Source: Caldisericales bacterium (lineage in GTDB: Bacteria; Caldisericota; Caldisericia; Caldisericales; Caldisericaceae). Taken from it: 35,431 nt of DNA. This document shows, piece by piece, positions 25,228 through 27,013 of this stretch. The stretch is taken from positions 1 through 35,431 of the forward strand of contig WFZA01000010.1 in the NCBI GenBank assembly GCA_015489815.1. The letters run 5' to 3'. The notes beneath the pieces are model-generated. The model saw only the letters and a list, made by a program, of their open reading frames with translations, was not told the DNA's origin and searched no databases. Positions within the stretch are counted from its first letter, which is position 1, and every line of letters starts with the position of its first letter. Both the position numbers and the translations under genes were made by a program.

Positions 25228-26823
25228 TTACTTACTTCCCTGCTCTATGTATGTTGTATTGAAGTGGTAATCGCCCGTAGGATACAGAACGAAACCCTTC
25301 ACATTACTTCTAAATACAAGTGTTTGTTTTGCATGAGCAAGTGGAACCCAAGGTGCATCATTATGAATAATTACCTGTTCCTGTTTATAGATCTCAACTC
25401 TTTTTTCGTGGTCAGTCGTACTTTGCGCTTCCATATTTAATTCGTGAATTTTGGGATTACGGTAGAATGCTACATTTCCTGCAGAACCTACAGTAGCTGC
25501 ATCAGGATCAAGTAGCACATATAAGAAGTCGTCAGGATCTGCATAATCTGCCGTCCAGCCTAACAAACACATTGCATGCTCTCCGTTTTCAGTCTTCTGA
25601 AGATAAGTGCCCCAATCGTAACTTACAATCTGAGCGTCAATTCCAACTTTCTTTAAGTCTGCCTGAATAGCAGTTGCAATTTTCCTTGGGTCAAACATGT
25701 ACGGGCGGGAAACAGGCATTGCCCAGAGATTCGTCTTAAATCCATTTGGATAACCTGCTTCTTTTAAAAGTTCTTTTGCCTTCTCGGGATTATATTCGTA
25801 ATCCTGAATTTGATCGTTGTATCCCCAAAGCGTTGGAGGAATCGGATTCTTAGCAACAATTGCAGTTCCCTTATAGAGATTTTTCACAATATCCGCTTTG
25901 TTAATTGCATAGTTAATTGCACGACGCACACGGACATCAGCAAACGGCTTCTGGAAACCAGGCGTATCTTTTCCCATGTTCATAGCAAGGTAACCTACAT
26001 TAAGTCCAGGTTCACTAAGAATTGTGAGATTCGGATCGTCACTTATGCTCTTTAAGTCATCCGGATTCGGAAATTCCATTCCCTGAACCTCACCCTTTTT
26101 CAAAGCAAGTAAACGCGCTGATGGATCTGGAATTACTTTAAAGATAAGTTTGTCAATCTTTGGCTTTGGACCCCAATATCCATCCCATTTTTCCAGTGTA
26201 ATGTGGTCTCCTTTCACCCATTCAACAAATTTAAATGGACCTGTTCCTACAGGATGCATAAACCACTGGTCTTTCCACTTATTTGCTGCAGTAGGGCTTA
26301 CGACAAACATTGTAAACATTGCCATTGTACTGATAAACGGAGCAAATGGCTTACTAAGCGTAATTTTAACTGTATAATCGTCAACTTTTTCTGTTTTCTT
26401 AATTTCGCTGAAGCACCATCCCCAATACTCCCACTTTCCGTACTTATGGAATGGGTGGTTCTTGTCGCGCTGTCTCTCATATGAGAACACAACTGCATCT
26501 GCATTGAACGGTGTTCCATCCTGGAATTTAACGCCTTTTCTCAAGTGGAATGTCCATACGAGACCATCAGGTGAAGTATCCCAACTCGTTGCAAGACAGG
26601 GCTCTATGTCTGTTGTTCCAGGTTTATACTTTACTAGCCCCTCGAAGATGTTATCCATAACAGTAATAGACTCTCCATCCGTTACATCTGCGGGATCAAG
26701 CTCTACAGCATCACCAGCTTTTGCAAACACCAAGGTCACAGGTGTTTTTTCCTTCGGCGCACATCCTGCAAATGTTACAGCCACAAACGCTATAACAAGC
26801 AGAAAAACTAAAATTTTCTTCAT
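25228..26823 (-). CDS. Peptide-type ABC transporter substrate-binding lipoprotein (SBP_bac_5)
   Basis: This 531-residue extracytoplasmic protein captures peptides or similar solutes. The lipoprotein signal is MKKILVFLLV with FAGC and C21 as the anchor. The mature part shows family motifs LDPADVTDGESI, VWTFHLRKGVKFQDGTPFNADAV, MHPVGTGPFKFVEW and VRRAINYAINKADIV. The C-terminal lobe has the LLGWTADYADPDDFLYVLLD block. AGGAGG precedes the ATG. It is transcribed from a TTGACA-16-TATTAT promoter with a leader of about 155 nt. The substrate cannot be named; nickel, oligosaccharide and dipeptide proteins share this fold. Confidence 0.94.
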   Translation of the reverse strand: MKKILVFLLVIAFVAVTFAGCAPKEKTPVTLVFAKAGDAVELDPADVTDGESITVMDNIFEGLVKYKPGTTDIEPCLATSWDTSPDGLVWTFHLRKGVKFQDGTPFNADAVVFSYERQRDKNHPFHKYGKWEYWGWCFSEIKKTEKVDDYTVKITLSKPFAPFISTMAMFTMFVVSPTAANKWKDQWFMHPVGTGPFKFVEWVKGDHITLEKWDGYWGPKPKIDKLIFKVIPDPSARLLALKKGEVQGMEFPNPDDLKSISDDPNLTILSEPGLNVGYLAMNMGKDTPGFQKPFADVRVRRAINYAINKADIVKNLYKGTAIVAKNPIPPTLWGYNDQIQDYEYNPEKAKELLKEAGYPNGFKTNLWAMPVSRPYMFDPRKIATAIQADLKKVGIDAQIVSYDWGTYLQKTENGEHAMCLLGWTADYADPDDFLYVLLDPDAATVGSAGNVAFYRNPKIHELNMEAQSTTDHEKRVEIYKQEQVIIHNDAPWVPLAHAKQTLVFRSNVKGFVLYPTGDYHFNTTYIEQGSK

Positions 26824-26979
26824 AAAAACCTCCTTTGTTGTTTAAATTTAAATAAAAAGCAATAGTAACTTTTCAGGGAATTTATATAAGGCAGATCACC
26901 TCCCTCACATCGACACTGGATGTAAATTCCTTAATCTATTTGTATAGGTTAACCAGAAATTGAATGTATTCTCTTCCAT
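26824..26979 (-). promoter_or_regulatory. Long structured leader of the ABC importer operon
   Basis: The predicted 5' leader is about 155 nt. It contains an 8 bp inverted repeat (GGAATTTA at 26877-26884 with TAAATTCC at 26923-26930) that encloses 38 nt. Inside lies a smaller ACATC/GATGT hairpin. On the minus strand it also has GGAGGTGATC (complement of 26894-26903), a 10 nt match to the anti-Shine-Dalgarno tail of 16S rRNA, with no start codon just after it. The real ribosome site, AGGAGG, is next to the ATG. No known riboswitch class is recognised. Confidence 0.45.
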
Positions 26980-26985
26980 ATAGGG

Positions 26986-27013
26986 ATAATAAAAGAATAT
27001 TAAATCCTGTCAA
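26986..27013 (-). promoter_or_regulatory. Promoter of the ABC importer operon
   Basis: The minus strand has TTGACA (27013-27008), 16 bp spacer, then TATTAT (26991-26986). It sits 22 bp after the DUF89 stop codon with no terminator between, so some read-through from DUF89 is possible. Confidence 0.65.

Follow-up and report, generated by a model that had tools for sequence, protein, structure and literature searches.

A Shine-Dalgarno sequence without a start codon in a two-part leader found before exported and membrane protein genes of Caldisericaceae

The window, i.e., the whole stretch of 35,431 nucleotides analysed here from a Caldisericales bacterium (contig WFZA01000010.1), carries a full complement of the 16S rRNA tail in the leader of a solute-binding protein gene. 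By comparison of leaders, this 10-mer is recognized as the upstream half, SD1, of a dispersed and unstructured leader with two Shine-Dalgarno (SD) sequences. Within Caldisericaceae, the genomes point to a module that occurs almost only before genes of membrane or secreted proteins. In the aligned leaders, SD1 is complementary to the 16S tail almost throughout and is usually not followed by a start codon that could serve it. A GAAAAG box comes next at fixed spacing, and after the box come an A-rich spacer and then SD2 and ATG. SD1 may be a docking site for the 30S subunit that guards the 5' end of mRNAs for exported and membrane proteins and possibly feeds SD2, a reading in which we place slightly less than even confidence.

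SD1 (GGAGGTGATC) was located at 26894..26903 on the minus strand. It is the single copy in the window (26903-26894), where 0.04 copies were expected by shuffling and at least one match arose in 4 of 100 shuffles. The 16S tail of the same genome reads GGATCACCTCCTTTCT (L046), so the pairing is full, and the 10 nt anti-SD match reported in an earlier note on this DNA is real. Three copies were found in the genome, i.e., the window copy, C32:22631, and the complement of the 16S gene (C64:7426-7435, inside the 16S match C64:7423-8987). The duplex energy with the genome's own 16S tail was -23.5 kcal/mol for SD1 and -13.3 kcal/mol for the working SD2 of the window, so the earlier description of the 10-mer as stronger than any ribosome site nearby holds against SD2. 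The same note was correct that ATG, GTG and TTG are absent at normal distance, here 4-12 nt past the GGAGG of SD1, and that the real start is distant (about 70 nt by its count). The first of these codons, a TTG, has spacing 36, and the true ATG has spacing 75; however, a CTG stands at spacing 4.

The whole leader element covers 26825..26906 on the minus strand. The GAAAAG box was placed at 26869..26874 (-), 29 nt 3' of the SD1 start, by pattern matches, spacing statistics and a permuted-hexamer control. It is followed by an A/T-rich unstructured spacer (26837..26868, minus strand), seen in the alignment and the base profile and given 0 pairs by RNAalifold; in other members, the spacer holds an AAAAATY box. 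SD2, the working ribosome site of the gene (AAAGGAGGT), lies at 26828..26836 (-). The gene itself (25228..26823, minus strand) encodes an extracellular solute-binding protein of family 5 with 531 aa, i.e., the binding lipoprotein of a peptide-type ABC importer (PF00496, E 1.1e-120). The promoter scan predicted a -35 element TTGACA at 27008..27013 (-) with score 11.6 and, after a spacer of 16, a -10 element TATTAT at 26986..26991 (-). The predicted -10 and SD1 are 82 nt apart, which places SD1 of the window away from the predicted 5' end. Two other candidates in this region were set aside. An open frame of 24 aa ending just 5' of SD1 (about 26979-26905) had no counterpart past the sister genome when the leaders were read. 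For a programmed frameshift, in which an SD precedes an A-rich slippery stretch, inspection of the window found no slippery heptamer and no ORF entering the region.

The 10-mer had been described as enclosed in an 8-bp stem (26877..26930, minus strand; arms 26923-26930 and 26877-26884). The stem exists and forms when these 54 nt are folded in isolation (z -1.74). However, it is not conserved, and the whole predicted leader of the window showed no more structure than shuffled sequences (z +0.82). Covariation in the stem had been proposed as a check, and RNAalifold detected 0 conserved pairs in 11 leaders of the binding-protein gene, as it did in 39 leaders of the module. The stem was judged incidental. 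The proposed switch that hides the site is unsupported, with neither a conserved pair nor an excess of structure in the leader. No Rfam family matched in the window at the gathering score, and a permissive scan of the leader returned matches only far below that score, e.g., snoRNA and coronavirus models. The predicted mean unpaired probability was 0.43 for SD2 versus 0.49 for the whole leader, and 0.36 for SD1 versus 0.69 for GAAAAG.

The leaders of orthologous binding-protein genes in related genera have diverged nearly everywhere except in an upstream GGAGG-like site, GAAAAG and the working SD. The upstream GGAGG was exact in 11 of 20 orthologous leaders, at 45-80 nt 5' of the start, while it carried one mismatch in 4 and was missing in 5. 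Lack of conservation in relatives had been named as refuting the earlier proposal, and the opposite was found. In two leaders of the orthologous gene (L018 and L020, from G009 and G012), SD1 is missing, GAAAAG is kept, and a TATAAT lies at about the place of SD1; the mRNA may therefore start between TATAAT and GAAAAG there.

A plain double-SD pattern recovered the same GGAGGTG-GAAAAG-GGAGG layout before unrelated genes in 18 family genomes. The order of the module is GGAGGTGR (SD1), about 20 nt, GAAAAG, an A-rich spacer, AAAGGAGG (SD2) and ATG. The pattern GGAGGTGN{8,30}GAAAAGN{10,40}GGAGG gave 44 matches in these Caldisericaceae genomes versus 6 when reversed, and the permuted hexamer AGAAAG in place of GAAAAG gave 4, of which 3 were inside the same kind of leader. 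These controls and the following model test matter because GAAAAG was chosen post hoc, from the first list of matches. To build a sequence-only model (R2), 32 leaders from other gene families were used and those of the binding-protein family were all excluded. Its best match in the window was the element at 26825-26906 (-), which scored 30.1 bits (E 1.7e-8); the runner-up site scored 12.2 bits. On leaders of the binding-protein gene in relatives it scored from 36.1 to 13.5 bits, and spaced stretches of G009, 400 kb in all, scored 14.2 at best. This match of a model that had left the family out disfavours a chance 10-mer. The earlier note had treated a single leader and had not noticed GAAAAG; that leader is one of a family with GAAAAG as a second conserved box, present at about 8 loci in the genome.

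The distribution across the phylum was surveyed with an earlier model (R1), whose source leaders include that of the window; R1 was not used as evidence for the window. The module was clear in Caldisericaceae and weaker elsewhere. Clear matches in other families were found in G001, G003, G004, G043 and G036 (best E 8e-7 to 5e-5), and most remaining genomes of the phylum gave a best E of 6e-4 to above 0.1 or no match. A similar GGAGGTG-GAAAAG-GGAGG layout was seen in more distant relatives, i.e., L113 (G049:C15), G049:C17:143 and G050:C47:5948, at weak best R1 scores, and L113 stands before what looks like a binding-lipoprotein gene. The genomes are for the most part metagenome bins, and orthologues inflate the counts.

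The spacing within the module is rigid on one side. From the start of GGAGG to the start of GAAAAG, 40 of 45 distinct instances measured 26-29 nt when 15-37 was allowed, and the distance from GAAAAG to SD2 varied from 24 to 41 in the same 45. A second GAAAAG was found in 6 of 49 non-redundant leaders, always 25-30 nt past the first. The genes behind three of these (L177, L247 and L267) look like relatives of one protein, so the independent cases are about four; the survey required a hydrophobic N-terminus and is therefore uninformative on export. The longer leaders L239, L247, L254, L256 (the same element as L177), L267 and L234 read as SD1-GAAAAG-GAAAAG-SD2 arrays with steps of roughly 27 nt. 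GAAAAG with SD2 and without SD1 gave 24 matches in the genome of the window versus 9 reversed, before genes of mixed types, one of which reads as rplL. The specificity is therefore carried by SD1.

The target genes were surveyed with the pattern GGAGGTGN{18,23}GAAAAG, which demands neither SD2 nor a gene. It gave 79 matches versus 15 reversed in the 18 Caldisericaceae genomes. Among the 79, 52 were leader-type matches before exported or membrane proteins and 1 was a leader-type possible exception (L270), while the rest were 13 ordinary gene starts, 6 matches inside ORFs and 2 unassignable ones (L257 and L263); this class assignment omits five matches (G021:C109; G022:C84, C119, C139 and C142). 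At the ordinary starts, SD1 directly serves an ATG or GTG and GAAAAG is coding. Thus, 52 of 53 assignable leader-type matches stand before exported or membrane proteins, versus a background of 26%.

The same was seen in 45 instances defined by the pattern and a following ORF of about 100 aa or more, a rule that dropped matches such as L084, L092 and L101-L104. By reading, all 45 stand before proteins with a signal peptide or membrane segment, export being judged by hydrophobicity, Pfam and inspection. A hydrophobicity threshold was passed by 39 of 45, versus 97 of 369 genes (26%) in a sample of G009, and the six that failed are uracil permeases (PF00860 for one). Among the rows set apart before the counts, L098, L099 and L176 are matches formed by the first codons of a gene with a cytosolic-looking product. 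The eight SD1-GAAAAG matches in the genome of the window all precede exported genes, and the reversed control gave 0. By Pfam, these genes are two CstA, the binding protein of the window, an SLH protein fused to SBP_bac_5, a sugar-type binding protein, a uracil permease, a pilin and a Bmp lipoprotein. About 20 protein families, counted by Pfam and N-terminus, lie behind the module, and the chance that all would be exported at the 26% background is, as a rough figure, of the order of 1e-12. Among the targets, L123:3-1475 (-) encodes a protein in which S-layer homology domains are joined to a solute-binding domain of family 5. Two cstA genes that closely resemble each other (G000:C2:1361 and G000:C3:1359, L064 and L082) share the same leader at nearly equal distance from two contig ends and are either paralogues or an assembly effect.

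The 16S complementarity of SD1 exceeded that of SD2 in 36 of 44 leaders, i.e., the 45 instances minus one with short context (mean -18.4 vs -15.0 kcal/mol), and SD1 retains the complement past the minimal GGA (GGAGGTGR). Start codons were counted in 47 leaders (45 rows minus 6 near-duplicates or members outside the family, plus 8 added; L164 is two bases short). An ATG, GTG or TTG at spacing 4-10 after SD1 was present in 10 of 47 (shuffled 8.4) and absent in 37, and ATG alone was present in 2 (shuffled 2.9). The three codons are neither enriched nor avoided, which fits a role without translation from SD1. When CTG was included, an NTG at this spacing was found in 17 of 47 leaders (shuffled 9.4 +- 2.5; 2 of 500 shuffles as high), and the enrichment comes largely from SLH (S-layer) orthologues.

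Of 62 leaders, 26 had a strong predicted sigma-70-like promoter 5' of SD1, against a mean of 2.2 and a maximum of 6 in shuffled sequences; in 10 of these 26 the -10 lay within 35 nt of SD1 (shuffled 0.6). SD1 would therefore often be near the mRNA 5' end. Some members lie within operons instead, where the preceding gene ends (e.g., L115 and L129). The uracil-permease leaders L117, L122, L125, L127, L091 and L055 have a hairpin just 5' of SD1 in dissimilar sequences (z -2.2 to -6.1), and in L117, L122 and L091 it comes directly after the predicted -10. RNase J was over the cut-off in 15 of 18 family genomes, and a full-length copy was not found in the bin that holds the window (77.9% complete). 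CsrA was found in 0 of 18 genomes, with three control genomes positive, and Hfq in 0 of 18 over the cut-off, with one weak match in G008.

The reading that we favour is that a 30S subunit binds SD1 without initiating. The parked subunit would block 5'-3' decay by RNase J, so that mRNAs for exported and membrane proteins would be long-lived, and it may move on to SD2. If a 30S subunit occupied SD1 in the manner of an ordinary initiation complex, GAAAAG would be at about its leading (downstream) edge, and the box may be an added contact point for it. Docking is favoured because the leader anatomy, i.e., a strong SD1 often near a promoter in hosts with RNase J, is that of stabilising leaders in Bacillus. 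Against it stand the 5 of 20 orthologous leaders without SD1, the lower predicted accessibility of SD1 than of GAAAAG, the 82 nt from the predicted -10 to SD1 in the window, and the lack of a full-length RNase J in its bin.

According to PMC3997798, a strong SD stabilises mRNA in Bacillus even without an initiation codon, and the title of a reference therein reports a 5' stem-loop plus ribosome binding for aprE. The stabilisers described there (ermC, atpE and aprE) resemble SD1 in that the SD is strong and the start codon unneeded, and the uracil-permease hairpins just 5' of SD1 recall the aprE stem-loop. However, those cases are described gene by gene, whereas here one module is common to about 20 gene families. 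The STAB-SD of Bacillus thuringiensis cry3A, as presented in PMC4113751, is a non-initiating SD-like sequence in the 5' UTR of an RNase J organism. This sequence is able to pair with the 3' end of 16S rRNA, is bound by 30S and halts RNase J1. SD1 likewise is a 16S 3'-end complement, has no ATG, GTG or TTG at normal spacing as far as sequence tells, and belongs to RNase J-type hosts (15 of 18 family genomes). Unlike the cry3A element as described there, it has GAAAAG at a fixed distance, several loci per genome and exported or membrane targets; also, SD1 of the window is away from the predicted 5' end, and stabilisation is here a proposal from sequence.

A plain roadblock leaves unexplained why GAAAAG stands at 26-29 nt, why it repeats at 25-30 nt and why the module is restricted to exported proteins. 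Both the rigid placement of GAAAAG and the restriction to export are new features. A wider reading, possible though doubtful, is a leader code of SD1, GAAAAG at about 27 nt (repeated after a further 25-30 nt in long leaders) and SD2, phased roughly to the ribosome footprint and reserved for exported and membrane mRNAs. Through such a code, subunits would be loaded or parked ahead of translation, in the service of stability, priority or delivery to the membrane.

The main rival to a docked 30S subunit is a dedicated binding factor. SD1 and GAAAAG would then be the two-part site of an RNA-binding protein or small RNA that governs a regulon for envelope and uptake functions (S-layer, binding proteins, permeases and pilin), and the likeness to an SD would be a means to compete with or recruit 30S. 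The rigid spacing of 26-29 nt, the repetition of GAAAAG at roughly 27 nt and the single functional class of targets do look regulon-like. However, the best-known candidates, CsrA and Hfq, are missing at the counts given above, no candidate protein or sRNA was found, and SD1 keeps its 16S complement beyond GGA. We regard this explanation as rather unlikely. It is less probable still that SD1 serves as the ribosome site of a short upstream ORF, mostly with a non-AUG start, and that this ORF is translationally coupled to the exported protein. The NTG excess speaks for it, as do the long open frames found in leaders of SLH and CstA genes; however, 30 of 47 leaders lack an NTG, ATG is not enriched, and the excess is largely due to SLH orthologues. 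In addition, every one of the three frames is used across GAAAAG (LKS, FRK and FEK), the close orthologues L125 and L127 differ by frame-breaking indels, and no conserved start codon with an open frame after SD1 was found, the frames being not conserved. In the window, a CTG-started frame of 24 codons runs from SD1 (26894-26820, minus strand) and ends in a TGA that overlaps the binding protein's ATG; L001 has an ATG-started frame that resembles it.

The earlier note had offered a ribosome standby site among its readings. Ribosome docking is still the leading type of explanation, with SD1 conserved in many leaders and no start codon behind it. The classical form is not supported and seems improbable, i.e., that 30S waits at SD1 until a structured SD2 opens, as an initiation aid that leaves decay unaffected. 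The A-rich spacer between SD1 and SD2 without conserved pairing would suit it. However, SD2 is not specially hidden (leader z +0.82; SD2 unpaired 0.43 vs 0.49 for the leader), RNAalifold found no conserved structure, and a ribosome site sequestered in conserved structure was not seen in these leaders. Standby sites are not known to be defined by 16S-complementary sequence. The standby site of tisB shares with SD1 an upstream 30S entry point, although, according to PMC7708055, it needs a sequestered RBS and 5' structure, neither of which is conserved here. A chance 10-mer in an incidental stem, or the structural switch of the earlier note, is very improbable. In its favour, the isolated stem does form, and a reader who views many 10-mers may meet a striking one by chance; the leave-family-out match (E 1.7e-8) and the 8 of 8 exported targets in the genome, with 0 for the reversed pattern, argue the other way.

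Orphan SDs that stabilise mRNA were already known in individual Bacillus genes, and no description of the SD1-GAAAAG-SD2 module was found in the open-access literature searched by title or abstract. The SD1 module is one common sequence module across a bacterial family, with many genes, a fixed geometry and almost only exported-protein genes behind it. If SD1 docks 30S, the leaders would be a natural, repeated test bed for non-initiating parked ribosomes that control mRNA life. If the module marks exported messages, it would be a sequence-defined bacterial link between the mRNA leader and the destination of the protein.
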